IMG/VR virus record: IMGVR_UViG_3300044695_006809
Location: 1-39,833 of that record
DNA from: a virus
DNA length: 39,833 nt
Reading direction: 5' to 3' (one strand)
Positions 6,892-34,415 of the stretch are shown here, piece after piece (positions within the stretch are counted from its first letter, which is position 1; the number at the start of each line of letters is the position of its first letter). A model generated the notes under the pieces. The model was not told where the DNA came from. It saw only the letters and a program-made list of their open reading frames with translations, and ran no database searches. Made by a program: the position numbers and the translations under genes.

Positions 6892-9189
6892 TTATTGCGG
6901 TGCTTGGGCTTCCATCGGCGGTTGCTGCATCATCTGCGCTAGGCTCACGCCATCCGGCAGTTGTTGCAGCATTTGCAGCAGTTGTTCCGCCGCGCTGGCC
7001 TGCGCCAGCGGGTCTTCGGTCAGGGTGCGGCCAATGCGAGCGTTCTCGCCACCGTGCTGCTTCTGGTTGTTCACCAGTCCGGCCAGGTAACTCGTCAGCA
7101 CGACGTGGATCTGCTGCCCACCGATCACACTTTGCTGGCGCAGCGGACTGCGCATGACTTCATCGCTCACGGCCTGTGCCAGTCCGCCAAAGTCCATGCC
7201 CTCGGTGACATCTGGTGCGCCGCCGCTGAAGATTTCCGAGAGGTGCATGCGGGCCATGTCGAGCGTCTGGCGCTGCGCGGTATCCACATCTTTCGGCAGG
7301 CATTGCGCCGCGAGGCCGGGGTCCAGCATGTTGAATCCGGCTTCGAGAATCGGCAGCGTGTTGATCTGACCGCGATTGTCGAGCGGCACGATCATGTCCT
7401 TGATGAAACCGAGGTGCTTGCTGGTCCATTCCACGTCCAGACTCTTCACGTTGAACTTGCTCTGGAAGTCGAAACTGCCGCGCACCTCATCAGCCGTGGC
7501 GGTGATGAGTTCGTTCGTGCCGGTGATGCGGGCACCTTGCAGCGGTGGCATGTATTGCTGGATGAGCTTGGCCGTGCGGGCGATGCACTGGCTCAGCGAG
7601 AGCATGAACCAATCCAGCTCCGCCTGGCCCATCATCATCGCCACGCTGTCAGACACATTGCGGCCGGCAAAGCCAAAGTAGCCGTCCACACTCTCGCGCA
7701 AGGTGCGCTCGATCTCGATGCTGCGGCCATCCGGCGGCGGAATCTGAAGTGCGGTGGGCACCTTGCCACGAATGGACGGCAGGAACACGCCAGGGGCGGG
7801 CCGCAAGCCTTCAAGTTCGGGGTCGCCGGTCCAGGTGGGGAAGGTCGTGAGGCTGGCGGCGTCGGTGCGGCTGTCCCACTGCGCTTTGACCGCCTGCTCC
7901 TTCGTCATGGTGATTTCTGGCACGCTGAAACCATCGAGCAAGAGGCGCTCGTCCTGGCTGAAGCTGAACGGCACAAAGGGGTAGGCGCCGTCCCAGTCCA
8001 TGCGCAGTTCGCGCTTGGCCACCTTGTCCTTCACGTCCGCGTGCATCACCGTCTCATAGGTGCCGGTGAGTCCATCCACCGTCACAGCACGATCCCACAG
8101 CTCGATGATTTGATACAGGTGTGTCTGCGCTTCACCGCCGGGGCGGGCGCTCCAGTTCACCCCGGCACCGCTCAGCGCCCAGGGGAAGGATTGCATGCTG
8201 TTCGCAAAGAGCGCACTGCGCCCTTTGTGCTTGTCCAGCACCTCTTTGACCCAAACTTTGTCCCAGTCTTTGAGCGCGGCCTGCTCCCGAATCCACTGCG
8301 CCGAACGCCAGCGCACACGGGCGATCCAGCGGCAGCTTTCCAGGCCGTCTTCCATCATCGTTTCATACGGAAAGAACACATCCACAAACGGCTGCAGCGC
8401 CTCCCAGCAGGGAGAACTGCGCTTCACATAGGACGCATGCACCATGGCCTGCTCCGCACCGCCACGCAGCGCGGCCAGGGCACGTTTCACCGAAGCCTGG
8501 CCGATCTTCCGCCGCTGGGCTGCACCGGGCATGTTCCGCAGGCAGAGCGCGATGAGCTGCTCCTCGCCTGCTTCATCGAGCACCAGCGCCTCGAAGTCGA
8601 TGCCCTCGATGAGAGTCATGTCCTGCGCCTCGGCCGCGGTCTGCATCTTCAACCACTCCGCCACCATCGGCACGGTGAGGGTGATGGCCTCCACGCCGCG
8701 TTCTTCCTTCCAGCCGACGTAGAGCAAGCTGGCACGGAAGCGGTCGGCATAGCTGCCCGCCCGCAGTCCCTGCGAGACAAACTCGGTGCGCATTGGGCCG
8801 TTGAGGTAGTAGCGCAGCACCTGGCGCATGAGTCCGGCGCGTTTTGCGTCCGTGCTCTCCATCGGGGTCACGCTCAGGCTGCCATTCATCAGGGCGGCGA
8901 TGCGGGCCGCGTTGCGCCGGTTCATGACCGTCTGGGTCAGGTGGACTTCATGGTCCGCCGCGCCGACGAAGGGTTTGGCATCGCTGGCTTTGGTGTTGGC
9001 CTTCTTGCCGGTGCCGGTTTTGTTTTGCCAGTAGCATTTGCGCGTCTGCTCATTGGTGGCCATCTGCTTGAGGAACTGCGTGGCGTCACGGCAGGCAGCG
9101 TCCATTTCCTCCAGCGCATCAGAGACCTGCCAAGTGGCAAGCGGTTTTTCCGGGTCAACGACAGCGGAGAGTTCAGCGGGATGGGACAT
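6892..9189 (-). CDS. Portal protein, 765 aa
   Basis: The length, position between terminase and scaffold/capsid, and sequence style fit a large podovirus/SU10-type portal: an early KCYWQNKTGTGKK / KPFVGAADHEVHL segment, NRRNAARIAALMNGSLSV, then a helical stem region rich in aromatic residues, and a C-terminal Gln/Met/Pro-rich tail (LLQMLQQLPDGVSLAQMMQQ) typical of the portal barrel or crown. Portals form the dodecameric DNA entry ring and bind the terminase. The start overlaps the small upstream gene by 17 nt. The assignment rests on context and overall architecture rather than a discrete motif. Confidence 0.75.
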   Translation of the reverse strand: MSHPAELSAVVDPEKPLATWQVSDALEEMDAACRDATQFLKQMATNEQTRKCYWQNKTGTGKKANTKASDAKPFVGAADHEVHLTQTVMNRRNAARIAALMNGSLSVTPMESTDAKRAGLMRQVLRYYLNGPMRTEFVSQGLRAGSYADRFRASLLYVGWKEERGVEAITLTVPMVAEWLKMQTAAEAQDMTLIEGIDFEALVLDEAGEEQLIALCLRNMPGAAQRRKIGQASVKRALAALRGGAEQAMVHASYVKRSSPCWEALQPFVDVFFPYETMMEDGLESCRWIARVRWRSAQWIREQAALKDWDKVWVKEVLDKHKGRSALFANSMQSFPWALSGAGVNWSARPGGEAQTHLYQIIELWDRAVTVDGLTGTYETVMHADVKDKVAKRELRMDWDGAYPFVPFSFSQDERLLLDGFSVPEITMTKEQAVKAQWDSRTDAASLTTFPTWTGDPELEGLRPAPGVFLPSIRGKVPTALQIPPPDGRSIEIERTLRESVDGYFGFAGRNVSDSVAMMMGQAELDWFMLSLSQCIARTAKLIQQYMPPLQGARITGTNELITATADEVRGSFDFQSKFNVKSLDVEWTSKHLGFIKDMIVPLDNRGQINTLPILEAGFNMLDPGLAAQCLPKDVDTAQRQTLDMARMHLSEIFSGGAPDVTEGMDFGGLAQAVSDEVMRSPLRQQSVIGGQQIHVVLTSYLAGLVNNQKQHGGENARIGRTLTEDPLAQASAAEQLLQMLQQLPDGVSLAQMMQQPPMEAQAPQ

Positions 9190-9526: not shown

Positions 9527-10144
9527 TTACTTCGTGGTGATCGGAAACTTTGCCTGCCCGACGTGCCCGACAAAGACACGCTTGTCGATCAGCACGCGCC
9601 CGCCCAGCTCGCGCCACTTGGCGCAAAACGCGAAGTCTTCACTGGTGCCGTCGTAGCTGGTCGGCCAGAAACTGTGCATGTCGCCAAACTCGGTGCCCTG
9701 CATCAGCGTCACATGCGGCTGCATCTTCTCAAACACGGAACGATGCACCCGCATGAATCCACGCGCCGTCTTCGCCACTTCCCACAGCACGCCGGGACTC
9801 AGCGATGGATTCTCGTTCCCTTTCAGCGGCACAATCGGCGCTTCAAACTTGACCGTGCGCTTCGAGTAAAGCCCGAAGACCAGCGGCTCGTCATGCTCCA
9901 GCAAATGCGCCAGGTCTTCCGGCTTGAACACCAGATCCGTGTCGATGACGATCATCTCGTCACAATCACTCTGAAGAAACTGCTTCGTCGCCACATCCAT
10001 CGCATAACCAGGATAGGGCGTGGAAAGATGGCAGAAGACGCTCTCGCCTTGCAAAGCGCCCATCATGGAGACGGCCCAGGCCGTCACAGAAAGCCCCATG
10101 CCGTTGTCGATGATGGGGTAAAAGATTGGTTTGTCGTTGTTCAT
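9527..10144 (-). CDS. GT-A-type glycosyltransferase, 205 aa
   Basis: The sequence opens with a Rossmann-like half (FYPIIDNGMGLSVTAWAVSM) and contains DEMIVIDTDLVFKPED, a DxD-type metal/nucleotide-sugar motif (DTD at residues 68-70), and a later TSEDFAFCAKWRELGG, which matches the acidic 'EDxdfc.r.r..G' catalytic region of GT2/ANP1-like glycosyltransferases. It would transfer a sugar from a nucleotide-sugar donor. It sits next to a Mom-like GNAT gene and the large terminase, and a methyltransferase is nearby, so a role in modifying phage DNA or virion protein is plausible. The acceptor is unknown. Confidence 0.75.
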   Translation of the reverse strand: MNNDKPIFYPIIDNGMGLSVTAWAVSMMGALQGESVFCHLSTPYPGYAMDVATKQFLQSDCDEMIVIDTDLVFKPEDLAHLLEHDEPLVFGLYSKRTVKFEAPIVPLKGNENPSLSPGVLWEVAKTARGFMRVHRSVFEKMQPHVTLMQGTEFGDMHSFWPTSYDGTSEDFAFCAKWRELGGRVLIDKRVFVGHVGQAKFPITTK

Positions 10145-10163
10145 TGTTTTTGGTTTTTGGTTC

Positions 10164-10715
10164 TCACTTCTCCGGCTTGTTCAGCTTACCTGGCCACGCC
10201 CACACCCACTTGTCGCGTCCCGGTCTCCCGGATCGTGTGTCGGTGCCGCTGCGTGCTCGTCCCATTCGCTCCCAGCCGTCGAAGCGATAGGTGTTGCCGT
10301 TGTGCAGGTCGGCATCTTGATACGAGACAGCGAACTCGTATCCCATCGCGGGGAACACGAACTCGCGCCAAAGTCGCAGAGCCACGCGGCAGAGGCCGCC
10401 ACGGGAGGCACAGAGGCGGGATAGCTCGATAGTGTTGTCTCGCGTCATCCATTGGCAGCCGCCGCCGACCACGGGCGCGATAAGGTTGCTTGCAGTCGTG
10501 ACGGCCACGGCTCGCCCCTCATGCACCAGCGCATGACAGGTTGCGCCCTGATTGCCGCGATTGATCGGCCCCATTTTGTGCCCCCACTCCACAAGGCAGC
10601 GGTTGGCGTCGGCCAGAGATACCGGCTCAAACCCCACAAAGCCGAACAAGGCATCGCACCCAACGCTGACCGCGTTGGAGTCGAATTTGCAAGCGGGCGT
10701 CAGGGGCGCGGTCAT
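10164..10715 (-). CDS. GNAT-fold protein of the Mom/XF1762-like phage group, 183 aa
   Basis: Motifs in order: GHKMGPINRGN (about 45-55), a core strand HALVHEGRAVAVTTASN, TIELSRLCASRGGLCRVALR (about 95-114, the acyl-CoA-binding loop region), then FPAMGYEFAVSYQDADLHNG and TYRFDGWERMG ending in KWVWAWPG. This arrangement resembles phage GNAT proteins such as XF1762-like and Mom-like proteins. Mu Mom modifies adenine in DNA to block restriction. Whether this protein does the same is inference, supported by the neighbouring glycosyltransferase and the adenine methyltransferase. Confidence 0.65.
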   Translation of the reverse strand: MTAPLTPACKFDSNAVSVGCDALFGFVGFEPVSLADANRCLVEWGHKMGPINRGNQGATCHALVHEGRAVAVTTASNLIAPVVGGGCQWMTRDNTIELSRLCASRGGLCRVALRLWREFVFPAMGYEFAVSYQDADLHNGNTYRFDGWERMGRARSGTDTRSGRPGRDKWVWAWPGKLNKPEK

Positions 10716-10733
10716 CGTGGGTGGATTTGGTCG

Positions 10734-11159
10734 TTAAATCCGCGTCCTTCTCGGCACCGCGCCGTCATACTCAAACACGCCTGCCGTCTCCGTCGGCGTG
10801 ACCTCGATGCGATCTCCGCGCCGGAACTGGTTGGCAAACACACGCGGCGCGGTCAGCCGGACGCTCACCAGCGCCCCGCCCTCCACCGGCTTGCAGCGCA
10901 GCACACGCGGCATCACGCCTGCGGCCTGCGCCAGCATGGCGATCTTAGCCGGGGCCGGGCTAGCCTCGCCCAGGCCAATCAGGCGCAGCACTTCCGCCTC
11001 GCCCTCCGGGGTAATGTGGAAGGCATTGCCGTCCTTGAGGTAATGCAGCAGCCGCTTGAGGTCGCCGCTTTCGCGCCAGCGTTTGAAGCTGTCACGCGGC
11101 ACGTTGAGGCGGGCCGCTAACACGGCTTCGGGGGTGGTGGTGGGTGTCGGAGTTTGCAT
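10734..11159 (-). CDS. Hypothetical protein with possible N-terminal HTH, 141 aa
   Basis: After a Thr/Pro-rich start, residues 10-60 (AVLAARLNVPRDSFKRWRES, LHYLKDGNAFHITPEGEAEV) look like a helix-turn-helix with a wing. The C-terminal half is beta-rich (VSVRLTAPRVFANQFRRGDR, IEVTPTETAGVFEYDG). It lies between terminase and the GNAT gene in the operon. It may bind DNA, but I cannot place it in a family. The leader is A/C-rich with repeated CACCAAG and no Shine-Dalgarno sequence. Confidence 0.5.
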   Translation of the reverse strand: MQTPTPTTTPEAVLAARLNVPRDSFKRWRESGDLKRLLHYLKDGNAFHITPEGEAEVLRLIGLGEASPAPAKIAMLAQAAGVMPRVLRCKPVEGGALVSVRLTAPRVFANQFRRGDRIEVTPTETAGVFEYDGAVPRRTRI

Positions 11160-11198
11160 GGTTCTTGGTGCTTGGTGCTTCGTTCTTTGTTGGGGTCG

Positions 11199-13292
11199 TC
11201 AGTAGCCAAATTCGGATTCTGCCACGCGCTTGAACACGCTGCTTTTGATGTGCCGCGGGGAAGCCAGGCAGAAGTAGCGCCAGACGGCATTCGGATCACC
11301 GCAGGCTTCATCCTTGAGCCGCGTCGAGTCCGACAGCGGTGGCAGGGTGTAGTGGTTGAACATGAACACGGTGTTGGTGCATTCACGATTCACACGCACG
11401 CGGGGCAGGCCCATGACACTCTCTCCCAGGGCGGTGCGGATGTTCTGGTTTCCCGCTGCTTTGCGGGTGCCATCGGGCAGGTTCAGTTCTTTAAAGCCGC
11501 ACTTCATCTGTGACACGACTTCATCAATCTTCTGCCCGCTGTTGCGGTCGCTCCAGTGGCTCCAGCGCGGATCTCCCCACAGTTCAAAGAGTTCGGCAAA
11601 CTGCCCGTCCACCGTCACGACTTCGCCAGGGCGAGTTTCGAGGGTGAAGGTGCGCTCCAGCACGCGGCCCTGCCACGGCTCACCGCTCTCCCGCATGCGG
11701 TCCAGAAAGCGTTTGAGCATTTCCCACACGACGAGGAACTGCCGCTCCAAACCCCAGCCGAGGCGCAAGTCCTGCGCCGGGCCTTCATCGCCATTCATGC
11801 GGTCTCCAGCGCTGACCACGGCCCACGGGCCGGGCATGCAGCCGTTGATCGGCACCGTCTCGCACGGCCACTCCATGGCCTGCCAGTAGCGGCCCAGCGG
11901 GTCCACCACCCACAAGCCCACGAACCACGGCTTGGCGTCCGCACCGTCGATCACGACGTAGATGGAGCCGTCACGCGGGATGTCTTTCCAGTCGCACAGG
12001 TGCAAGTCCTCGCTCCAGGCATTGGCAAACTCGCTGCGCTGATCCTGCTCGACATCGCCATACAGCTTCATGCGCACCTGGCGATGCCCGCCACTCATCG
12101 CCCCGCCCATGATGGCATGATACGCAGGCTTCCAGATGTTTGCACTGGTGGGCACACTGGCCACGAGGCGCAGCGGGTCGGGCGGCTGTGCAAAGCGCCA
12201 CACCTGCGTCTTCGGCGCACCGGCCAGGGTCTTGAGCACGGGCGCATCGGCCCAGCCATACTTGCGTGCGCCGGCCAGGAACATCTTCACGGTGGCGGTG
12301 TAGCCCTTGATCGGCGTGAAGGCGATGACATGCACGCCTTGCAGCACGGCACCAAGTAGAGAGCGATGGATCAAGTGGAACGGCTCCCCCGCCTCCAGCA
12401 GCGCCAGCAGTTTCTTGATGCGCTCCTGAAACCACGGTTCCCGCGTCATTTCCACGCGAGACGCGAGACGCGCATTCAGCGTCTTCACCAGCGCAGGCGG
12501 GATCAGCTCGTCGCTCAGGATGGTGTTATACTCGCCACCTTGGAAGGTGTCTTCGTCCTGGCCGTAGTTCCGCATCTCAAACCGCCCGCCGCCCGTGAAG
12601 GCCCGGCCCGTCTCGTCCTTCACCTCCACCAGCACTTGAAACCAGTCATTGGTGAAGCCTTTGGCGTTGTAGTTGAACGCTGTGTCCACCGTGGCCTTCT
12701 TCCGCGCCTGCGCCTTCAGATCGAGCGGCAGGTGATTGAAGATTTCGGGATGATGCCATTTCCGGCTCATGCCTTCCGACTCATGCAGCACCATGACCTG
12801 CCCGCTCCAGGTGTCGTCATGCTCATAGCCCGGTGGCCGCGGCGAGTAGATGAAATTGCAACTCGTCAGATGCAGCAGCGTCTTGGTTTTGCCGGGGCGA
12901 TTCCCCCCCGTGATGAGGTATTCGATGACCTCCCCAGGCTGCGCCAGCCGCTTGCGGCAGAGTTCCACCAAGATCGGCCTGAAGTATTCCGAGATCCAAC
13001 CGAACTGGAACGGGTCACGCGCCATGCGCTTGATCCATGACCGGCGCAGTTCCTCCCACTGCTTCACCTGCTCCCACGTCACCCGCATTTCTTGCGCCCG
13101 CTCATGGTAGCGCAGCTCATGCAGGAAAGACTCGTCAATGGCCAACCGCTCCCGCATGCGCAGCGTGCAGCCCGCTTCATCCCAGGGCGCGTCCCACAGA
13201 ATTTCCAACGGCTGATACACCGCATGCGGCGTCTGCCGCGAAAGGCGGTCTTCCCACTCCTGGCGTGTCTGAAGGCGTTCAAGGTCCGTCAT
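11199..13292 (-). CDS. terL: Large terminase subunit (ATPase-nuclease), 697 aa
   Basis: This is the DNA-packaging motor. The Walker A motif GGNRPGKT is at residues 129-136, followed by a Walker B-type segment YNTILSDE (about 255-262, acidic pair at 261-262). A C-terminal RNase H-like nuclease domain begins near YVVIDGADAKPWFVGLWVV, where the aspartates could be metal ligands. I chose ATG 13292 (MTDLERLQTRQEW), which lies 1 nt from the methyltransferase stop; an upstream extension runs through that gene. With the HTH-containing gene at 14598 as a possible small subunit, it forms the packaging module beside portal. Confidence 0.85.
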   Translation of the reverse strand: MTDLERLQTRQEWEDRLSRQTPHAVYQPLEILWDAPWDEAGCTLRMRERLAIDESFLHELRYHERAQEMRVTWEQVKQWEELRRSWIKRMARDPFQFGWISEYFRPILVELCRKRLAQPGEVIEYLITGGNRPGKTKTLLHLTSCNFIYSPRPPGYEHDDTWSGQVMVLHESEGMSRKWHHPEIFNHLPLDLKAQARKKATVDTAFNYNAKGFTNDWFQVLVEVKDETGRAFTGGGRFEMRNYGQDEDTFQGGEYNTILSDELIPPALVKTLNARLASRVEMTREPWFQERIKKLLALLEAGEPFHLIHRSLLGAVLQGVHVIAFTPIKGYTATVKMFLAGARKYGWADAPVLKTLAGAPKTQVWRFAQPPDPLRLVASVPTSANIWKPAYHAIMGGAMSGGHRQVRMKLYGDVEQDQRSEFANAWSEDLHLCDWKDIPRDGSIYVVIDGADAKPWFVGLWVVDPLGRYWQAMEWPCETVPINGCMPGPWAVVSAGDRMNGDEGPAQDLRLGWGLERQFLVVWEMLKRFLDRMRESGEPWQGRVLERTFTLETRPGEVVTVDGQFAELFELWGDPRWSHWSDRNSGQKIDEVVSQMKCGFKELNLPDGTRKAAGNQNIRTALGESVMGLPRVRVNRECTNTVFMFNHYTLPPLSDSTRLKDEACGDPNAVWRYFCLASPRHIKSSVFKRVAESEFGY

Positions 13293-13293
13293 G

Positions 13294-13893
13294 TTATTCG
13301 GCGACTGAAGTTGTAGAATGACTGTTCCCCAGCCTGACGACGCGCCCAGGTAGTCCGGACGCCTCCAAGGCCAGCGTGTTTGATTCGTCGTAGCTGATGA
13401 GCGCGGACGGTGCGCCAGAGTTTGCCGCTGCCCGCCTGCCGTCCACATGATGGAAGTGGATCCTTCCCCACAAGAACAGGATTGAGTGCGCCTTCTTCCA
13501 GACGTGCTCCACCCAATCAGACGTTTCAGTTCGCGCAAAGATCATGGCGGTAGCGTTGCCGTGTTCCGCACATCTGGCGAGCCATCGGCCAGCCTCTCGC
13601 CCATACGGCGGATTGCACCAGACTCGGCCTTTCCACGCAAGCAGCAGCCCATTGTCTTTCCATGTGTAGTGCCTTTCAGCCATATCCCAAGGCCGCACCA
13701 CTGGCGCACATACGTCGAGGTCAAACGGGCCAACCGATGCGAGGATTTCAGGCGGTGTCAGCCATTCATCCTTGCCCATGCTGGCGCTTTGATGAGATCC
13801 CATACCAACGGCTGGGGAACAAATCGCTGATGCCAAGACCAGCCCGGCGGGGCTGCTTGGCAAGGCGAAGTCGATGGCGGGCTGGTCAGGCAT
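13294..13893 (-). CDS. Phage N6-adenine DNA methyltransferase (Dam family, PF05869-like), 199 aa
   Basis: The sequence contains WLTPPEIL (residues 44-51), FDLDVCA and WCNPPYGRE with catalytic NPPY at 94-97, the layout of the phage N-6-adenine methyltransferase family. Downstream, MIFARTETSDWVEHVWKKAH and the ILFLWGRIHFHH segment match the family core. Such enzymes methylate adenine using S-adenosylmethionine, usually to shield phage DNA from restriction. The gene sits between an unknown gene and the large terminase; a start at internal ATG 13803 would remove about 30 N-terminal residues outside the domain. Confidence 0.85.
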   Translation of the reverse strand: MPDQPAIDFALPSSPAGLVLASAICSPAVGMGSHQSASMGKDEWLTPPEILASVGPFDLDVCAPVVRPWDMAERHYTWKDNGLLLAWKGRVWCNPPYGREAGRWLARCAEHGNATAMIFARTETSDWVEHVWKKAHSILFLWGRIHFHHVDGRRAAANSGAPSALISYDESNTLALEASGLPGRVVRLGNSHSTTSVAE

Positions 13894-13928
13894 AGCTCAA
13901 GCGTTCATTGTTTTCGTGTCCGTTTGTT

Positions 13929-14561
13929 TCAATAAGCCCATTGCGCGTCCCCCAGTAATTCCGTCGAGTCCTGCCACCACTCATCCCATTGCTCGTTCGT
14001 GGCGACGTTCCAGTCAGGGATGCGTTCCGCCGCACCATTCGGCGTGAGACTGAGCGGCAACCATTTGAGACGGTTGTTGGGATAGATGGCCAACTGTCCA
14101 TTGGATAGCTTCACCACATTGCCTTCCTTGTGTTCTTCCAGAAGCTCAACGTCACCAATGTCGAGCGTCCCGCCCGCTTGATTCTCAGGCAGGAAATCAA
14201 TGGTGAACCAATAATGCCCAGTCATTGGAGGAAACCCCTTGCCCATGTTGATGAGCATCGGCACATCGCAGAGCTGACTTTTCTGCCACACTTCGATGCT
14301 GCCTGAAAGGCACTCCCACATTTGCACCTTGTGCAGTGGGAGGTTGTTTTGATCCTCTTCAGGCTTGTAGTGGTAGAGGCACTGCGGGGGAATTTTGTCA
14401 AAACAGGCGGCATATTTGTCCACCCAGACTTGAAAGCAGAAGGGGCGATTGCGCATCGCCCGCACGCTCAATAGCCAAGCGGGTTCAAACTCGGTTTCAC
14501 GACCGCCGAACGCATCGGCGCGGACATAGACTCTGGCTTTGGGTAGGTTGACGTTTCTCAT
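13929..14561 (-). CDS. Hypothetical protein, 210 aa
   Basis: The protein begins MRNVNLPKARVYVRADAF and is aromatic- and Asn/Asp-rich (TGHYWFTIDFLPEN, EQWDEWWQDSTELLG). No family is recognised. Beta-rich composition with several Trp residues would suit a DNA-modification accessory or a phage structural protein, but nothing decides this. It lies between the small terminase candidate and the methyltransferase, so co-transcription with the packaging and modification genes is likely. Confidence 0.55.
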   Translation of the reverse strand: MRNVNLPKARVYVRADAFGGRETEFEPAWLLSVRAMRNRPFCFQVWVDKYAACFDKIPPQCLYHYKPEEDQNNLPLHKVQMWECLSGSIEVWQKSQLCDVPMLINMGKGFPPMTGHYWFTIDFLPENQAGGTLDIGDVELLEEHKEGNVVKLSNGQLAIYPNNRLKWLPLSLTPNGAAERIPDWNVATNEQWDEWWQDSTELLGDAQWAY

Positions 14562-15605: not shown

Positions 15606-17192
15606 TCAGAAGCCGGGCAGAACTACCTGCCGGTTCTTCTCGTTGTTGGAATAGAGGTGCGTGGTGCGCCCCTCGAAGCGTTGCAGCGCTGGCTTGAAGC
15701 GCAGGCAGATGTCATCCGTGGTGGCTCCCCAACGGTTCTTGGCGATGATGAAGCGGGCGTGCTCGTTGTAGTCGGCCTGGGCCACGCTGATGTGCGCAGG
15801 TAAGCCGCGCCCATCGTGCCAGCGCTCCGGGCAGTCCTGTCTGAAACCGTGCGTCAAATCTTGCCAGCGGGTTTGATCTTTCTCATCCATCGCGGCCCAG
15901 TCCCGCACCTCTGGTGGGCGATGGATGAAGGCGATGTGCGTCGGGTATTCCACCATTTCGGAAGCGCCGCGAATGTCCCCCGGCGTCGGCGGGCGGTTGC
16001 GGTCCTGCTTCTCGCGGGCTTTCTTGTCGAGCTGCACGAAGAGCACGACCAGCACGCCGAGATTGCGGCGGATTTCATGCAGGCACTCCATGATTTCCTT
16101 CTGGCCGATGCGCTCGTCCTTGCGGCCATGATCGCTGCTGGGCTTGAGCTGGCCGAAGTGGTCGATCACCACCACCTTCACCCCATGCCTACGCACATGC
16201 AGTTGCACTTTGGCCCGCAGTTCCGCCGTTGTGATGCTGCTTTTGTGGTCCCAAAAGATCGGAGCCAGGGACACTTCCTGCGCTGCCCGTGCCACCGCGC
16301 CGTGGTCATCGTTCTTTATCATGCCGTTGCGTGAGACATTCACATTCACGCCGCTGCGGCCCAGATACAGACGGTGCCCCATGCCCATGCGCCCCATTTC
16401 CAGCGGGAAGACCAGCGTGGGGATCTTGCACTCCACGGCCATGTGCTCGATGAGCGACACCGCGCCCACCGTCTTGCCCATGCCAGGGAAGGCACCGATC
16501 ATGAGCAGGTCACCATCGCCATCTGGAGCCAAGCCATGGAAGGTGCGGTCCACATCCGCCCAGCCCGTCTGCACGCCGAGCACTTTGCCACGGTTGTCGC
16601 AGATGCGCTGGAACGCATCGAGCCATTCATGCGTCATCGTGACAGAATTCAGCACCTGAGTTTCCGGCCCGCCCTTGTTGGCGCTGGCGGCTTCCAGCAC
16701 CTTGAAAATGCGCTCTTCGGCGCGTGCCACCACCTGGCTGGCGTCCTCCAGCTCCGCCACGCTGCCGTGCCCAAACGCCTCCTCCATGCCATCCGCGCAC
16801 ACGTTGACCAATTGCCGCATGAGCCACTTCTCCGTGATGGTCTTTTTGTAGAACGGGAAGTGCGAGGAGACCGGCACGAAGGCGAATAATTCCATGAGCG
16901 CCGCAGGTCCGCCCACTTCATCCAGCTTGCCGAGGTCTTTCAGCCGGTGCGTCACGGAGGCCGGTTCAATCGGCTCGTTTTTGGCCTGCATGTCCAGCAG
17001 CAGCTCGTAAACGGTGCGGTTCTGCACATGGTAAAACGCTTCTGGCAGGAGGTCGCGCTGGCACTCCAGCACCCGCTCGGTGGGATCTTGCAGCAAGCAG
17101 GACAGCAGCCCCTTCTCTGCCTCATCGCTGAACGGCATGCTTTGGTTCAATGCGGCCAGCTTGCGCTCGGCCTGATTCGTTTCGTCACTCAT
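15606..17192 (-). CDS. dnaB: Replicative DNA helicase, DnaB family, 528 aa
   Basis: The N-terminal domain (MPFSDEAEKGLLSCLLQDP, DLLPEAFYHVQNRTVYELLL) matches the DnaB primase-interaction domain. The RecA-like C-terminal domain has Walker A GAFPGMGKT (residues 233-241), Walker B VVVIDHFGQL (340-349) and the DnaB-specific segment LFVQLDKKAREKQDRNRPPT then GDIRGASEMVEYPTHIAFIHR (384-424). It should unwind the fork as a hexamer. Upstream is the replisome-organiser-like protein and downstream the SSB-like gene, together forming the replication block. Start and stop are coupled to neighbours (ATGA overlap at 17189-17192). Confidence 0.9.
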   Translation of the reverse strand: MSDETNQAERKLAALNQSMPFSDEAEKGLLSCLLQDPTERVLECQRDLLPEAFYHVQNRTVYELLLDMQAKNEPIEPASVTHRLKDLGKLDEVGGPAALMELFAFVPVSSHFPFYKKTITEKWLMRQLVNVCADGMEEAFGHGSVAELEDASQVVARAEERIFKVLEAASANKGGPETQVLNSVTMTHEWLDAFQRICDNRGKVLGVQTGWADVDRTFHGLAPDGDGDLLMIGAFPGMGKTVGAVSLIEHMAVECKIPTLVFPLEMGRMGMGHRLYLGRSGVNVNVSRNGMIKNDDHGAVARAAQEVSLAPIFWDHKSSITTAELRAKVQLHVRRHGVKVVVIDHFGQLKPSSDHGRKDERIGQKEIMECLHEIRRNLGVLVVLFVQLDKKAREKQDRNRPPTPGDIRGASEMVEYPTHIAFIHRPPEVRDWAAMDEKDQTRWQDLTHGFRQDCPERWHDGRGLPAHISVAQADYNEHARFIIAKNRWGATTDDICLRFKPALQRFEGRTTHLYSNNEKNRQVVLPGF

Positions 17193-18136
17193 CGGGTCAT
17201 GTCCTCCAGCTTGATTCTCAGTTCCGTTTTGTAGCTCTCAGGGATGCCATGCCAGCCCTTCGGGCATTCCACCTCCGGCCAGCACAGCGCCCAGGCGTCC
17301 CACCAGCCCGCTGGCTCCTCCTCCACCGGCAGCGCTTTTTCTTTTTTCGCGGTGCTCGGCGTGGCGTAGCTGCCGCGGCGCTTGTCCTCGCGTGCCCACT
17401 TGCGCAGGTCCGCCCGCCAATCGGTGATCGGCACCTGAACGCCGCTCCTGACCGGTTCCCAGTTGCAGGTGCTGCGGTCATCGAACCAGTTCCGCACGCT
17501 GGCGTCTTCGATGATGAGCATTTCGCCATTGCCCTTGGAATAGCTTTCGGCATAGGCCAGCGCCTCTTCCACTGTCACCGGGACACCCGCGCCCCCTTCT
17601 TTTTTTTCTGGCCTTGATCCAGTCTGGAAATCTTTGGGGGAGGGCGCGGAAGCTGCGTCAGCAGCGCTTCCATTCCCTTCCACTCCCTTCCCTTCCTTTT
17701 CCCTGTTCCCTTCCCTGTTCCATTCCCCACGGTAGTCGTCCTGTAAGACTACGGGAGCACTACGGGAGTGTTCCGGTAGTGTTGTGGTAGTGCTATCGGA
17801 GGATTCAGGGAGTAAAACCTTGATCTTACTGCGTGCGGGCTTGTTGATGACCTGATGCTTTCGGAAGTTGTTGATGTGTCCGATGTCACGACCATCATCG
17901 AGTCGAGCGAGTGTGAGGTAGCCAATGGCCTCCAATTCGTTCAACATCTGCAAAATCGGTCCGGCTTTGTCCAAAAACGGCATCAGCTCGCCACGAATCA
18001 GCGCCGGATGCGCCATGAAATAGCCTTCATCGTCGGCCAGATTGAGCAGTCCGATGGCCAGCAAGCGGACTTCGGCACGCTGCTGCGCCATGATTTGATG
18101 CTTCCAGAAATCGGGTTTGAGGGTGCGGATTCTCAT
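17189..18136 (-). CDS. Replisome organiser / replication initiation-like protein, 315 aa
   Basis: MRIRTLKPDFWKHQIMAQQR is the typical N-terminus of phage replisome organisers: a winged-helix domain with RLLAIGLLNLADDEGYF and IGYLTLARLDDGRDIG. A long low-complexity linker (Ser/Thr then Glu/Gly/Arg-rich, about residues 110-175) precedes a helical C-terminal part (LRKWAREDKRRGS). Such proteins bind the origin and load the helicase, encoded next (ATGA overlap). The start shares one nucleotide with the preceding stop. Confidence 0.75.
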   Translation of the reverse strand: MRIRTLKPDFWKHQIMAQQRAEVRLLAIGLLNLADDEGYFMAHPALIRGELMPFLDKAGPILQMLNELEAIGYLTLARLDDGRDIGHINNFRKHQVINKPARSKIKVLLPESSDSTTTTLPEHSRSAPVVLQDDYRGEWNREGNREKEGKGVEGNGSAADAASAPSPKDFQTGSRPEKKEGGAGVPVTVEEALAYAESYSKGNGEMLIIEDASVRNWFDDRSTCNWEPVRSGVQVPITDWRADLRKWAREDKRRGSYATPSTAKKEKALPVEEEPAGWWDAWALCWPEVECPKGWHGIPESYKTELRIKLEDMTR

Positions 18137-20908: not shown

Positions 20909-21325
20909 ATGAACACGACACCACGAACCGCTAAAGTGCTTGCGGAAGCACTAAAAGTGCATGGTTGGGAGCAAATTGACTTAGCCAAGAAAAGCGGCGT
21001 CAATCGCGCCACGATCTCGCTGCACCTCAACGGCTCACGCCCAATCCGAGACGATCACCTCGCGCTCTACATCAACGCCCTGGACAAGCCCGAGCAGACG
21101 CGCCTGTTGTCCGCCTGGCTCCAGGACACACTCCCCGCCGAAGTGATTGCCAACGTGCTCGACATCACCTCCAACAGCGTGCGCGAGGAGGTGCGCGCCT
21201 GGCGTCCCGGCCTCACGTCGGAGCAGTCCGACATGATCAACTGGTGGGCGGCCAAATTTGCCGCAGATGACGAGCTAGCCAGGATTTTTGAGGCCATCAC
21301 CAGCAAAGAAGGCTGGACGCCGTAA
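20909..21325 (+). CDS. XRE-family HTH regulator (candidate phage repressor), 138 aa
   Basis: Residues about 10-60 (VLAEALKVHGWEQIDLAKKS, NRATISLHLNGSRPIRDDHL) form the XRE/Cro-CI helix-turn-helix. The rest has helices (LLSAWLQDTLPAEVIANVLD, MINWWAAKFAADDELARIFE) but no LexA-type peptidase, so cleavage-based induction is not evident. Context (next to divergent RHH control and a tRNA-integrating phage) suits a lysogeny regulator. CAGATTGCAA (20898-20907), also found at the integrase promoter, lies just upstream of its start. A strong terminator follows. Confidence 0.8.
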   Translation: MNTTPRTAKVLAEALKVHGWEQIDLAKKSGVNRATISLHLNGSRPIRDDHLALYINALDKPEQTRLLSAWLQDTLPAEVIANVLDITSNSVREEVRAWRPGLTSEQSDMINWWAAKFAADDELARIFEAITSKEGWTP

Positions 21326-21356
21326 TCACGCGCCGAGGCCCCCAAAACACCCCACC

Positions 21357-21384
21357 AAAGCCCGGCCACAAAGCCGGGCTTTTT
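21357..21384 (+). terminator. Intrinsic terminator after the XRE gene
   Basis: Stem AAAGCCCGGC/GCCGGGCTTT with loop CACAAA, followed by TTTTT. It should stop plus-strand transcription after the XRE gene and isolate the accessory block that starts with its own promoter at 21415. Confidence 0.85.
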
Positions 21385-21409
21385 CATACCCCAAAAACAT
21401 TTCTGAAAT

Positions 21410-21512
21410 AATTGTTGCACGCAACAATTACATGCACCATACTCCCCCCGTTGCCACAACGGCAGCCCGTGCATCAACACGGCAAACCAAACGACAGACA
21501 CAAAATCAGACC
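21410..21512 (+). promoter_or_regulatory. Promoter, operator-like palindrome and structured leader of the ArdC-type gene
   Basis: TTGCAC (21415-21420), 17 bp, CATACT (21438-21443) form a promoter. The -35 lies in a palindrome with 9-bp arms (AATTGTTGC / GCAACAATT, 21410-21429), a possible operator. The leader carries hairpin CCGTG/CACGG with loop CATCAA (21467-21482) and GACAGACA (21493-21500), and ends at ATG 21513. Nearly the same promoter and hairpin precede the gene at 22576. Confidence 0.75.
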
Positions 21513-22406
21513 ATGAAAACACAAACCACCACAGCCACCCGCGACCTCTACCAAGAAGTCACCGACCGCATTCTGGCAGCCCTGCGTAATGGCGTTTGCC
21601 CTTGGCGCAAAGACTGGACCGCCACCAACGACACCCCGCGCAACTGGGACAATCGCCCTTATCGCGGGATCAACTGGCTCATGCTCTCTACCCTCGCTTA
21701 CAAGTCCCCCGTTTACGTCACGTTCAAGAAGGCGCTCGACCTCGGCGGCCAGGTCCGCAAAGGCGAGAAGGGCCAGCTCGTCGTCTTCTGGAAATTCTTC
21801 AAAGGGAAAGACATCAATCCCGCCACCGGCAAAAATAAGACCGTGCCCATGCTCCGCCATTACTACGTGTTCAACGTCGAGCAGTGCGAAAACCTCCCCG
21901 CATTGCCAGCCGTTGACGCTCGCCCCTTCGCGCCGCTCGATGAGTGCGAACGCATCGTGGCCAGCATGCCCCAGGCCCCCAGCATAAGCGAAAACGGGCG
22001 CGGCTCATGCTTTTATCGCCCCTCCACAGACTCGGTGCACATGACCGACCGCCACGCCTTCAAATCGAGCGAAGGCTTTTACGGCACCCTCTTCCACGAG
22101 CTAGGCCACGCCACCGGGCACCCTTCCCGCCTCAATCGGCCAGGCATCACCGAAAAGGCCAATTTTGGCAGCGAAACCTACAGCCGCGAAGAACTCGTGG
22201 CCGAGCTGACCAGCGCCAACCTTTGCGCCCATGCTGGCATCGCCTCGCCAGTCATCGAAAACCAAGCCGCCTATCTGCAAAGCTGGCTCAACGTCCTCCA
22301 GGAAGACACCAAGGCCATCGTGTGGGCCGCAGGCAAAGCCGCCCGCGCTGCCGATTTCATCCTAGGCCGCACCTTTGACGACACCACCGAAGAAGCCGCC
22401 GCCTAA
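21513..22406 (+). CDS. ArdC-type antirestriction protein with zincin metallopeptidase domain, 297 aa
   Basis: The N-terminal domain (LYQEVTDRILAALRNGVCPW then WRKDW, NRPYRGINWLMLSTLAY) matches the ArdC ssDNA-binding domain (PF08401-like). The second half has a metallopeptidase with HELGH at 195-199 (FYGTLFHELGHATGHPSRLN) and a downstream EELVAELTSANLC segment, as in ArdC-associated zincins. ArdC-type proteins protect incoming ssDNA or conjugating DNA from restriction; here they would guard phage DNA. I chose ATG 21513 because of the leader arrangement. Usually seen on plasmids; a phage location is less usual. Confidence 0.85.
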   Translation: MKTQTTTATRDLYQEVTDRILAALRNGVCPWRKDWTATNDTPRNWDNRPYRGINWLMLSTLAYKSPVYVTFKKALDLGGQVRKGEKGQLVVFWKFFKGKDINPATGKNKTVPMLRHYYVFNVEQCENLPALPAVDARPFAPLDECERIVASMPQAPSISENGRGSCFYRPSTDSVHMTDRHAFKSSEGFYGTLFHELGHATGHPSRLNRPGITEKANFGSETYSREELVAELTSANLCAHAGIASPVIENQAAYLQSWLNVLQEDTKAIVWAAGKAARAADFILGRTFDDTTEEAAA

Positions 22407-27242: not shown

Positions 27243-27566
27243 TCAAATGGGTGCTCCGGGCCGATTGTCCACCAAGGTGCCTGCGTGGCGGGCATCGAGC
27301 ACGATGGCGCAGCCTGCGGCGACGTGGCCGAGGTGGTGGGCGGCGCTTTCGGGGTCGAGGTCTTCGCCTTCGAGCACGCAGTCGATGTGGCGTTTCATCG
27401 CGCCTAGGTAGGTCATGAGGTCCACCTTGTTCTGCCGCCAGTTCCAGGGGCCGTATTTGCGAGCGCCGAGAGTCAGCGCTGCTGCCACCTCCCGGCTGAA
27501 GACCGGCGGCAGGAGCTGGAGTTGCGGTTTCATGGCACCGGCTGCGCCTTTGGGGTCGGTGCTCAT
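27243..27566 (-). CDS. DUF5664 / dATP-dGTP diphosphohydrolase-like (MazZ-type) protein, 107 aa
   Basis: The middle carries GARKYGPWNWRQNKVDLMTY, then RHIDCVLEGEDLDPESAAHH and LGHVAAGCAIVLDARHAG, the 'KY...NWR..Y..A..RH...GE..D.ES..HL.H' pattern of the dATP/dGTP diphosphohydrolase N-terminal family, which includes the MazZ nucleotide-pool enzyme of Z-genome phages. It would hydrolyse a dNTP to the monophosphate. No DatZ/PurZ partners are seen, so general dNTP housekeeping is as likely as base replacement. I chose ATG 27566; it starts 1 nt from the polyvalent protein stop. Confidence 0.75.
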   Translation of the reverse strand: MSTDPKGAAGAMKPQLQLLPPVFSREVAAALTLGARKYGPWNWRQNKVDLMTYLGAMKRHIDCVLEGEDLDPESAAHHLGHVAAGCAIVLDARHAGTLVDNRPGAPI

Positions 27567-27567
27567 G

Positions 27568-30500
27568 TTACTTGACCACGCTGGCCTTGGCTCGTGCTTT
27601 GATCGCTGCGCTGCGGGCTTTGATTCGGGCATCGGCTTCCTGCACGGGCAGCTTGAGCAGGTCGGAGCCTTCGAGGCTCAGCCAATCCTTGTAACCTTGA
27701 CCGACGGCCTTCTCGTATCTCCACACGGCGTCACGGCCCAGGGTTTCCAGCGGCACGCGCACGTTGTCCTGGATGACGGTCACCTGGTCGCTCGGCATGG
27801 GCAGGGACAGGCCACGAGCCAGCAGAGCACCGAGCACACGATGCGCCTCGCCGCTCTCCACGCTGGTGTAGGCGCGACTCCAGGGGGTGCGTTGCAGTTT
27901 CACCTCCTCGCCCAGCAGATTGAGCTGGGGGCGGCCATCGTTGACAAATTTGCGGGCGATGGGCATGCTGCGCAGCATCAGCTCGGCAGCGCCCTCGGGC
28001 TTAAAGTTGCGCGGATCGGTCCAGGCCTCCGCGTCCTTCACTAGGGTCGGCATAAAGCCTCCGGCAAAGCCGGTGCCGGTCTTGATCATCTGGTCGATCG
28101 TGCTGGTCACTTTGTCTGAGCTAAAAGACGGCTCGCCAAAGAGTTCCACGAGATTCCGCACGGCAGACACGTTCTTGACCTGCGTGTAACCGGTGGCCAC
28201 GCCGCGCAGCAGATGCCCAGCGGTGCCGCGTTCGGCCCAGCTCGCGGGTTTGTGGCGCTTCTCATCGAGCATGCCACCGACCACGGCAAACAGGCCCATG
28301 GTCGGCCATTGCTTGTAAGACACTCGGCGCACCTTACCGCCTTCGCGTTTCCACATCGTCAGGCGTTCGTAGCCTGCGGCCATGCGTTCCTTGGCCTGCT
28401 GTGGGTTCAGGGTGCTCCAGTCGCCTTCGATCTGCCAGCCTTCGTCTTCGTCGTCACTGTTCAGGAAGATCGCCGCCAGTGTGCTGGCCAGCATCAGGCC
28501 CACGAGGTTCTTGCCGAGCAGCAGCTCCTGCTGCATGCGGCTCACGTCGCGGCCATAGAAGCCCGCCTTGCCCAGCACATAGCTGCCGGGGATGTAGCGG
28601 GTCAGATCCGCGCCGAAGTTCGCGCCGAAGCGCATGAACCGCGTGCCGGTGATGCCGTGCAGGGAACCGGCCATCACGCCGGAAATCACCCGGTAGAAGC
28701 GGTTTGCCGTCACGTCTTGCGCGTAGTCGCCCAGGCCACGCTGGATGCTGCCAAGTCCCTGCTTCATGGCGCTGTAGATGATGCCAAACACGCCGGTGGG
28801 ATCGTTCTGGTAGGCTGCCATGTCGCCGATCTCTGACGCGGCGGCGTAGTCGGCAGGTTTCACGGTGCCGTTGAGGATTTCGCGGGTGCGAGCGCTCACC
28901 GTGGCGCGTTCTTGGCTGGTCTTTGGCTCGGCACCGCCGGTCACTTCCCGCAGCGCTTGCGTGCGGGCGTCGGCGCGTTCGCTTGCCGTGAAGCCCACCC
29001 TGCCCTGGTAGAGTTCAGGGTGCAGCGCCCGTGCCACGGCGATTGCGCCCTGCGTGGTGGCCGTGTTGTTGATGTGGTCAGCGGCAGCCATTAGGCGGCC
29101 CGTGAACATCATCACCGGAGCCAGGCCGTATTTCTGAAACGTGTTGCCGTTCTTCCACAGGTTTTCCCCCAGCGGCACGGGTGTCACGCTCGTCTCGCCC
29201 TCCAGCGCCTTCTTCAGGTCTGCGCCAAAGCGTTTCAGGTAGCTGGTGTCTCCCTTGAAGAGGATTTGACCGCTCTCCCGCACGCCTTCAAACAGGCCGC
29301 GCCACCACTGCGCATGCGCGTCGATGGCGGCGCGGCCTTGCCCACGCGCCATGAGTCCACCGATCTGCATGAGGTTTGTGCCCATGCCGTTGATGGCGGC
29401 CAGCCAGGTGTCAAACTGCGTGCGCAGGCCAGACAACACGGCGGCGGTCCAGTAGGAGTTCAGCACCTCGATCCAGCTCGCGCCGGTCTTCTTCTGGATG
29501 GCGTTCAGCAGATCGCGCAGTTTCTGGTTGCGGATCACACCTTCCGGCAGCTTCCAGGCGGCTTCTGCCAGCGTGCGCAGTTGTGCGGTGTCGGCAGCGG
29601 TCAGCATGCGCAGGCCGTATTCAGGGGCCACGGCCTCCCGCCACATCTCACTGTTGAACATGCCCAGGTTGATCATGCGCAGCAATTTTGGCAGTGCCTT
29701 CTGCACCTTCACGCGGTCGGTCTTGTCCTTCTCACCGAGCACGCCCGCCTTCTCCAGCTCCCTGTTGAAGACCTTGCGGCGCTCACGCTGCCAGGCTTTG
29801 TCCAGTTCGTTGGTCAGGGCCAGGCGTTCGTCCTGCGTCAGTCCTTGCAGCCGCTCGTCCAGCATGAGCCGCCGGTAAATCTCGATCTGCCGGGCCTTCT
29901 GTGTCGAAGGCATGTCCGTAAAAATTTCCGCCCAATTCATGCCGGGGGCGATCTTGGCGGCCAACTCCTTCAGCAGCTTGGCCAGCGCCGGGCTGTCCTT
30001 GGCCAGCAAACGGTTCTTCGTAGCCTCGGCAGCTTTGGCGGTCGTCTCAGCAGCCTGCTGCTGCCATTGCTGCAAGGTCTCGTTCAAAGCCCGAACAGCC
30101 AGTGGTCGCCCCTGCGCCCAGGCCTCGGGAGAAATGCCACCCGCCTGCGCCTCCTCATCCCACACACGCATCACCGCCTCCATGGCCCGCTGCGGATTGC
30201 GCAGGACTTCCGCCCGCACATCTACGGCACGTTGCCCGCTTTGATCTGCGCCCGTCGCCAGCGTCTGTCCATAGCCAGCCGCCTCAAAGCCACGTTGCAC
30301 CGCCTGCTTCACCATGCCCGGCGCATAGGCCACCGTCGGCGTGGCTGGCATCAGCTCATTGAGCCGTTTCAGTGCCGCCGACTCGGTCATACCCAGCTCG
30401 ATGAGCATGAGGCGCACCTGCTCCCGGCCTGCCTTCCATGACTCTTCAAACATGGGAGCCTCTGCCACCTGATCCACAAACGTGCGGGCCAGCAATTCAC

Positions 30501-33500
30501 CGAATGACAACGCATCAGGCTTCAAAGGCTTGCCCCTGACCGCTGCACCCAGCGTGCGCTTGAGACTCGCCACCAGCGCCGCCAGCGCCGTTTTCTGTTC
30601 TGGCTTGACCTGGCTGCTCTTCGCCTTTTGCAGCAGCGCACGGGCCACATCGTCGATCATTTCATCGCGTTGCGTCTTGCCATTCACCAGCCCCGCCACT
30701 GCCTCGCGAATCGTCACGCGCGGTTTCAATCGTGCGCCCATGACGGCATTCAGAATAGCCTCCACGCGCTCCGTGATGTCACCCTGCACATCGTTGAGGA
30801 TGCGAGTAATTTTCTCCACCGCACCAGTGCCACCGCCTTCAAAGCGTTTGTCCATCACCGCGTCGGCACGATCCACGAGGATGCCTTGCGCGGCCATCAC
30901 GGGGGCGATGGGTTGCAGGATGGTGTTGTTCACCACGCCACGCTGGCGCAAAGCGCGGGCGGGGTCGGCGCTCAGAAACTCACGGGTCCACACGCGGGCC
31001 ATGCGCTGGCTTTGCACATGCGCCCACAGGCGCTGCACCTCCGTGCCGTTGGTGGTCGATTCCGAGGTCAGGCGTGAGATCAGCAACGCAGCGGCATGTT
31101 CCGCCGCATCCAGCGGCAGCGGCACGGCCTGCGCCACGAACTGCTCCACCGCTGTCTGCGTGTCCACACTGTCCAGCCAGCGCCGGGCTTGATCCGCCAC
31201 CATCGCATCCGTGCGCGGGCCGTTGATCACACGGGCGGCCTCGTTCGGACTGGCAAAACGGGACTGCGTTTCGTTCGGGGCAGGCGTGCTTCGCGCTACT
31301 TCATCACCAATTCCCCCGGAATCTCCGATTCCGGCAGTCCCGACACTTCGGCCAGATACTTCGTCCGGTCCGGTTGTTCCTCGGCCTTGTCCAACAACGC
31401 CACCAATTTCTGACTGCCGATTTGCAGACAATACTGATCCCACGCTGAGAGATTGGAAATAGCTACGGACATAGGGAATGATAGCATCAATTTCGGCATC
31501 GGTCAATAAGGTGTAAACATTGGCATCGCCGTAATTAGGTTGGGCGCGGCCTGCCAATTTGGCGGTGGCGCGTTCAATGCTGCGGGCCAGTAATTCCTTG
31601 GGATCAACAGCGTAGCGCAGCCATTTGGCCATCTTGGTTTGGCTGCCGGTGTTGGCACGCGCAGCGATTTGCAGCTCTTTGAAAGAAGCTGTGCGGGTCA
31701 GCACTCCCATGAGCTGCTTCAGCGGCGCATGCTGCTCCAAATCAAAGCCACTGCCCGGCGTGTGGGCGTGGTGCAGATGATGCGAAAACTCATGCACCGC
31801 CGTGTTGGCAAGCTGCGCATCGCTCAGATTGTCATTCAGGGCGATGTGGCCGCGCACCACATACTCGCCATGATCACGGCTGCTTTTGGGCATCAGCTTC
31901 AAACCAATGGTCTGAACTTTGCTGAGAGACAAACCCCACAGGCTTTCGAGGCTGGAAATGGCATTGAATACCACGCCGCGCATGGCGGCAGGCACCTCTG
32001 CGTCTGATTGCAAGGCATTGGCCAACGTGCTGTCAGGATTGGCTAGCGTCGGCGTGGCCCGTGCCTCTTTCGGCTTGGTCTTCGGCAGATTCCGCCGCTG
32101 CATGCCGTAGGGGTTGATGCGCTGCGCTCGGTCTGCCTGGGGCGCGCCCCCACGCTTGCCCGTTCCCTGCGGATTGATCGCCCCGACCTCGCTGGTCCGC
32201 ATCGCGGCCTGCCAGGCACCTTGCAAATACTGGCGCACGGCTTCGCCGAAGCGCTGGAGCATGCTTGTCGCCCATTGGGCAAAGGTTTGACCGGCACGAA
32301 CTGCCGCACTGGCCAGATTTACCAGCGCATCCGCGGCGGCACCTGGCAGCGTGGTGCTGCCTGCGTTGCTGCGGTTGCCACCTTGCAGGTTTTGCAGCCC
32401 ACGGCTGGTGCCATAGCGCACCGTGCCACCTTGCTGCTCGACGTTGATCGCGGCGGCAAGGATAGCGTCCTGCGCCTGTTCCGCCTGCTGACCGGTCAGT
32501 TTGATGACTTGACCTGGGCGTTTGAGATTGCGCAGTAGCACCTCGACCTGCCCCTGCTCATTCATGCGGACACTGCGGAGCAGTTGGTCATTGTGCGGCA
32601 CATAGGTATTCCCATTGTTATCACGCAGACTTAGCGTGCCATCCTCTGCCGGAATAAACTGGGCCTCGGACACTTGCGGGTCTGGCATGGCCTGAAGCTC
32701 CGCCAGTCGGACTTGCTGTGCCGTCTCACCCACAGCACGCTGCACCGTTTCAGGGTCTGAAACTTCGATCACAGGGCCATTTGGCACTTCGACCACCAGC
32801 CGCTGCCCGTCTTGCTGCAATCGCCCAGCATAGCCCTCGTAATTCACGACGTCTCCCACTTGCGGAGCCGCCACCATTGCGCCCGTCCCTGCACCTGCTG
32901 GCGCAGTCGGGGACGGCACTGGCATTTCAGTGCCCGTTTGCACATTGGAGCCAGTGATGGTTTGCGCGGGTTCGGCTGTGACTCCCGCGATTGCATTCTG
33001 CGCGATCTGATCGGCAGGCGCACGCTCGCCGGGAGTCAAAGGGGTTTGTGTGGGTGGTGTTGTAGAGGGGTCGGACATTGTTTGTCCTACCCCCTCCAAA
33101 TCCGCCACCTCATCCGCCGTCAGCTCCCCGGTATCCTCCGGCAGGTCCGGCACGAGGCTTTCTTGCGCAATCCGGCTCAGCGTGGAAGGCAGCGGGCCAG
33201 CAGCGCCAGCCAGCGGGGCAGCGCCAGGCGTTGCTCCAGGTGTTTGAGGCGCGCCAGTCGGCGCTGGCGTTTGATTCGGTGGTAAGCCGTCATTCGTTGA
33301 TAGTTCTGGGTTGATGGTTGATGGACTGAGGGCTTGCACAGCGGCCTTGGCTCCCACGCCCACGCCCATGAGTCCGAGAGAGCCAGCCAGGGAATCTTTG
33401 GCGATTTGCAGCCGCTCCGCAGCGCTCAGATAGGGGTTGTCAATGGTGGCGCTGACTTGCTCTCCGAGCATTTCTCCGGCAATGCCTTTGGCGGCATCGA

Positions 33501-34398: not shown

Positions 34399-34415
34399 GG
34401 GAGGATGAAATAAGA

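Follow-up and report, generated by a model that had tools for sequence, protein, structure and literature searches.

The Mom protein of phage Mu is an acyltransferase of the GNAT fold whose target is the N6 position of adenine (PMC7824862). Other described viral enzymes that bear on the locus analysed here are Rac of phage phiKMV, which is reported to act on host RNA polymerase (PMC7824862), Dam of phage P1, whose methylation of pac sites serves packaging (PMC12707154), and A197 of the archaeal virus STIV, a glycosyltransferase reported to be essential and possibly to act on the coat protein (PMC10551542).

The window, i.e. the whole stretch of DNA analysed, is one viral record, 39,833 bases long, in which an exact terminal repeat was not found. 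A first-pass annotation had placed three modification-type genes inside 4.4 kb of it, next to the packaging genes, and had read them as a possible cluster with a plausible common hypermodification purpose. The three ORFs are confirmed as a Dam-type methyltransferase (Dam), a Mom-like GNAT and a predicted GT-A glycosyltransferase (GT), and the terminase-like ORF lies between Dam and the GNAT region (Table 1). The functional three-gene cluster is rejected because a sister phage keeps GT without the other two genes and because GT is a core gene. The reading favoured here, with modest confidence, is that the window carries adenine-modifying and anti-restriction cargo genes that were acquired separately into exchangeable slots, and that GT is not related to DNA.

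Table 1. Coordinates of the features discussed, with the basis of each assignment
Feature	Position in window	Strand	Basis or remark
Portal-like protein	6892..9189	-	Position and size; adjoins GT in relatives
Predicted GT-A glycosyltransferase (phrog_1574), core gene adjoining portal	9527..10144	-	phrog_1574, VIA, motifs
Putative Mom-like GNAT, accessory	10164..10715	-	571-bp insertion between o10734 and GT
Small HTH-like protein (o10734), core, upstream of GT	10734..11159	-	Kept with GT in relatives
Large terminase-like protein	11199..13292	-	Walker A/B-like motifs by eye
Dam-type N6-adenine methyltransferase (PF05869), accessory	13294..13893	-	623-bp insertion between o13929 and terminase
phrog_3704 protein upstream of Dam (o13929)	13929..14561	-	'Ferredoxin' by PHROG name alone
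ArdC-type anti-restriction protein	21288..22406	+	phrog_7245, E 2.9e-76
dATP/dGTP diphosphohydrolase-like protein	27243..27632	-	PF18909, E 2.9e-27

The sister phage, UViG_3300042430_002650 (40,184 bases), shares 92-98% DNA identity with the window across most shared stretches, one 1.2-kb block being 84% identical. It is without window positions 10163-10733 (571 bp, GNAT) and 13302-13924 (623 bp, Dam), both with sharp edges, and also without 21518-22396, which is most of ArdC; GT is retained at 99% identity. GNAT and Dam are precise single-gene insertions in the packaging region, of later date than GT. The GNAT profile misses the sister while matching its own phages and the positive controls, and neither this profile nor PF05869 has a match in the records of 16 relatives. 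Gain of both genes in the window lineage is the simpler reading and is favoured over loss, because no other relative searched has GNAT or Dam. The pair amounts to an experiment of nature, in which one of two near-identical phages carries a Mom-like GNAT, Dam and ArdC and the other does not. At the place of ArdC the sister has a 304-aa ORF (L018:714-1628), by eye DUF932-like. The replicative helicase and replication initiator (window 15606-18131) are exchanged as a block in the sister, whose helicase is just 25% identical, within flanking DNA of about 95-97% identity.

The GNAT protein (E 1.3e-6) and two further members of its family (E 4.5e-4 and 2.4e-7) match phrog_1384, which PHROGs names 'Mom-like DNA modification protein'; besides phrog_1384, no PHROG family was matched by family members below E 0.01. 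No match was found in Pfam, acetyltransferase families included, or in NCBIfam. The Mom part of the proposed Mom/XF1762 assignment is retained; its XF1762 part received no NCBIfam match. An hhalign comparison of 26 family members with nine Mom proteins, Mu Mom among them, gave prob 92.7 and E 4.3e-7 (prob 77.4 and E 2e-5 with a smaller alignment). The alignment ends at Mu residue 173, and the Mom C-terminal region (H183, Y217) has no aligned counterpart. In the family 33 residues are invariant across the 26 members, among them H46, R53, E97, R100, S131, Q133, D134, H138, D146, W148, D159 and R167. By a partly manual alignment, H46, E97-L98-x-R100 and S131..D134 correspond to Mu H58, E108-L109-x-R111 and S145..D148, and G140 and Y143, likewise invariant in the 26 proteins, to Mu G156 and Y159. 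Mu S124, the residue mutated to inactivate Mom in 8bv8, aligns, with some doubt owing to gaps there, to a variable position (G106/G107; G, S, P or H).

An AlphaFold model of the protein (mean pLDDT 69, pTM 0.63) shows a GNAT fold: it has 46 PDB matches at E <= 0.001, and those listed are essentially all GNAT acyltransferases. The top VIA match is Mu Mom S124A (8bv8_A; Z 11.4 over 154 residues), and other GNATs follow so closely (Z 10.9-10) that the structural scores are tied. PDB sequence searches with the GNAT and GT alignments returned nothing useful. Given the structural tie and the missing counterparts of S124 and of the C-terminal region, the protein is filed as a predicted Mom-like sister family, remotely related to Mom, and not as Mom proper.

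It is unlikely, though this is the alternative that survives best, that the GNAT substrate is a protein, such as host RNA polymerase, or a small molecule instead of DNA. The tied structures include GNATs with protein or small-molecule substrates (1y9k, RimI, PaiA), and the S124 position of Mom is not conserved, both of which would suit such a substrate. Sequence profiles, in contrast, pick out Mom alone, no Pfam acetyltransferase family matches, and invariance at 33 columns in 26 proteins from many unrelated phages would be compatible with a substrate that is universal, for example DNA.

The GNAT family, unmatched by any Pfam or NCBIfam model, was collected by pattern scan from 49 viral loci and five bacterial genomes at 47-97% identity. 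Two plasmids carry relatives, and a Verrucomicrobiaceae MAG carries a 78% identical copy; no tblastn match was found in cultured phages. In L002 and L003 the ORF DNA is 92-93% identical to the window over 559-568 bp, the match taking in just the ORF plus some 20-30 bp ahead of it; the window is otherwise unmatched. By their flanks, 48 loci divide into 24 groups with no detectable protein similarity between groups. GNAT thus moves as a lone gene among unrelated contexts. A portal search in GNAT-carrying genomes, for which there was no positive control, found none. A preference of GNAT for a place beside terminase is not claimed: the two lie within 4 kb in 7 of 19 records against 7.6 expected (p 0.75), in a phrog_2-detectable set that misses divergent terminases.

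Methyltransferases accompany the family at times. Dam is present in 2 of 41 GNAT-bearing records and cytosine-5 (C5) methyltransferases in 11 of 41 (L032, which was added there, is a GT relative). Of the 13 GNAT-bearing records that also encode a DNA methyltransferase, seven have the two genes no more than 4 kb apart (3.4 expected, p about 0.015), a modest excess from an exploratory test with three distances tried on contigs of mixed length. In L053 (5001-5986) a gene of the Dam family begins at the end of GNAT and shares 31% identity with the window Dam; this pairing, in an unrelated phage, is a candidate two-gene unit.

Assignment of the gene at 13294 to the Dam family stands. The protein matches PF05869 with E 2.5e-14 and 53.8 bits, above the gathering score of 28.1, and phrog_111 DNA methyltransferase with E 8.9e-39, and the catalytic (D/N)PPY motif is intact as NPPYG. 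In these respects it resembles the phage N6-adenine methyltransferases of PF05869 and TIGR01712, but it stays below the TIGR01712 equivalog cut-off (37.4 vs 97.05 bits). GATC is neither rarer nor commoner than expected in the window (O/E 0.94), which is uninformative on the target of Dam. A role of Dam in packaging or gene regulation, on the model of pac-site methylation in P1, in place of restriction evasion, is improbable. The gene lies directly before the terminase gene, whose ATG at 13292 follows the Dam stop directly, as such a role might lead one to expect; however, the sister has a terminase 98% identical to that of the window and no Dam gene in its genome, and in the relative L032 the same slot is occupied by a C5 methyltransferase.

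Codon comparison of the computable pairs places GNAT, Dam and GT under purifying selection (dN/dS 0.05-0.22, the range also found for GNAT itself; 0.17 for Dam), and all three are therefore real genes. The same values make it very improbable that GNAT and Dam are passenger cargo of no present benefit. Many phage cargo genes are dispensable, and the gain or loss seen here is recent, which would suit passengers; selection on both genes and the repeated presence of GNAT in unrelated phages argue against it.

The protein at 9527 matches phrog_1574, a PHROG of unknown function, with E 2e-17. Its model is weak (pLDDT 57), and the GT-A fold, assigned by structure comparison alone, agrees with the first-pass annotation: the fifty listed VIA matches are essentially all GT-A glycosyltransferases (Z 7.7-10.4), and the DxD motif (D68, D70), E169-D170 and H194 are invariant. 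The top match is STIV A197 (2c0n, Z 10.4), which is like the window GT in size, GT-A fold, DxD motif, viral origin and lack of extra domains; A197 differs in coming from an archaeal virus, and sequence identity is 17%. GT is a member of the late structural module, because all 12 relatives to which it led have it in the same placement, next to the portal gene if the contig extends that far, several of them with a terminase only 24-45% identical. GT probably acts on a virion protein or a host or cell-surface target rather than on DNA. A single hypermodification pathway, in which Dam or GNAT primes adenine and GT adds a sugar, has hardly any probability left: three genes on the same strand inside 4.4 kb and the proximity of family GNATs to methyltransferases above expectation speak for it, but the sister has GT without GNAT or Dam, neither gene was detected in the records of the 16 relatives, phrog_1574 was not found in nine GNAT-bearing records (a weak point, since control genomes were also unmatched), and Pfam detected no thymidylate-synthase-type hydroxymethylase or TET/JBP enzyme in 55 + 10 window ORFs, the 2290-aa ORF being scanned for acceptor-base enzymes with PHROGs only.

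The window terminase-like ORF has no PHROG match of its own; its homologue in the relative L028, 40% identical, matches the phrog_2 terminase large subunit (E 2.4e-8). The portal-like protein has neither a family match nor a PHROG match. Both outlying genes to which the first-pass annotation had extended its anti-restriction theme, ArdC and the nucleotide-pool enzyme at 27243, are real (Table 1). A Z-genome (2-aminoadenine) reading is unsupported, because the diphosphohydrolase is without a PurZ-type (adenylosuccinate-synthetase-like) partner by Pfam among the scanned window ORFs. The 2290-aa ORF (window 27568-34440) has no PHROG match, and its downstream end overlaps the diphosphohydrolase gene.

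Site composition gives a separate view of restriction. GTAC is absent from the window, where trinucleotide frequencies predict 46.6 sites and dinucleotide frequencies 36.5, and occurs twice in the sister (45 expected). Six-base palindromes reach an O/E of 0.39 in the window (269 vs 685 expected), against 0.97 for composition-matched other hexamers; the same method gives 0.58 for Mu, 0.60 for T7 and 0.65 for lambda, all higher than the window, and 0.41 for the sister, which is without GNAT, Dam and ArdC. CAGCTG (0 vs 30.6 expected) and GGCGCC (1 vs 53.8) are strongly depleted in the window, while TGCGCA, GCATGC and TGGCCA are not avoided. The depletion of GTAC and of six-base palindromes in both phages indicates strong past restriction pressure on the lineage, which was met mainly by site loss. 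Palindrome avoidance also means that protection by modification has been incomplete, and the protective genes would be recent additions.

Among the enzymes that target GTAC are PabI-type restriction glycosylases, and under such systems the site is known to have been lost in Helicobacter and Campylobacter (PMC10273834). In the window, its loss suggests either long-term pressure from GTAC-cutting restriction or a GTAC-poor host lineage. The Verrucomicrobiaceae MAG with the 78% identical GNAT is also GTAC-scarce (18 vs 76 expected in 63 kb), a hint, and no proof, of a verrucomicrobial host. GTAC counts are likewise 0 in several otherwise unrelated GNAT-bearing phage contigs (L004, L006, L012).

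Under the favoured reading of separately acquired cargo, Dam would place N6-methyl groups on adenines within a short motif. By analogy with Mom, GNAT would transfer a bulky group from an acyl-CoA-type donor to adenine N6 within a short degenerate motif, and the marks of both enzymes would prevent cleavage by host restriction enzymes. The third gene, ArdC, is unlinked and probably counters restriction by another route, and GT, as a core late gene, probably adds sugar to a protein of the virion or to a target on the host surface. Of the anti-restriction purpose first proposed for the whole group, the part concerning Dam, the Mom-like GNAT and ArdC is thus the likeliest account of these genes; the part concerning GT, for which no base-hydroxylating partner was found, is not upheld.

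The subfamily is new, and the type of biology is already known. Tentatively, and with considerable reserve, GNAT may represent a compact, highly conserved sister family of Mom that makes a new acyl or alkyl DNA mark and serves as a lone mobile restriction shield, sometimes together with a Dam or C5 methyltransferase. If GNAT modifies DNA, one small gene could give broad restriction evasion.

With Mu Mom, the GNAT protein shares the predicted fold, the H, ELxR, S-x-x-D and G..Y positions, a significant profile-profile match, and its occurrence as a phage gene with no adjoining biosynthetic pathway. It differs from Mu Mom in length (183 vs 241 residues), with about 17% identity between the two, in lacking the aligned C-terminal part and a conserved S124, and in that no Com-like neighbour was recognised. 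The two slots resemble the anti-restriction cargo (moron) slots of temperate phages and plasmids, which hold ArdC or orphan methyltransferases and are likewise filled by single genes that differ between near-identical relatives; unlike those, the slots of the window sit between terminase and portal genes.
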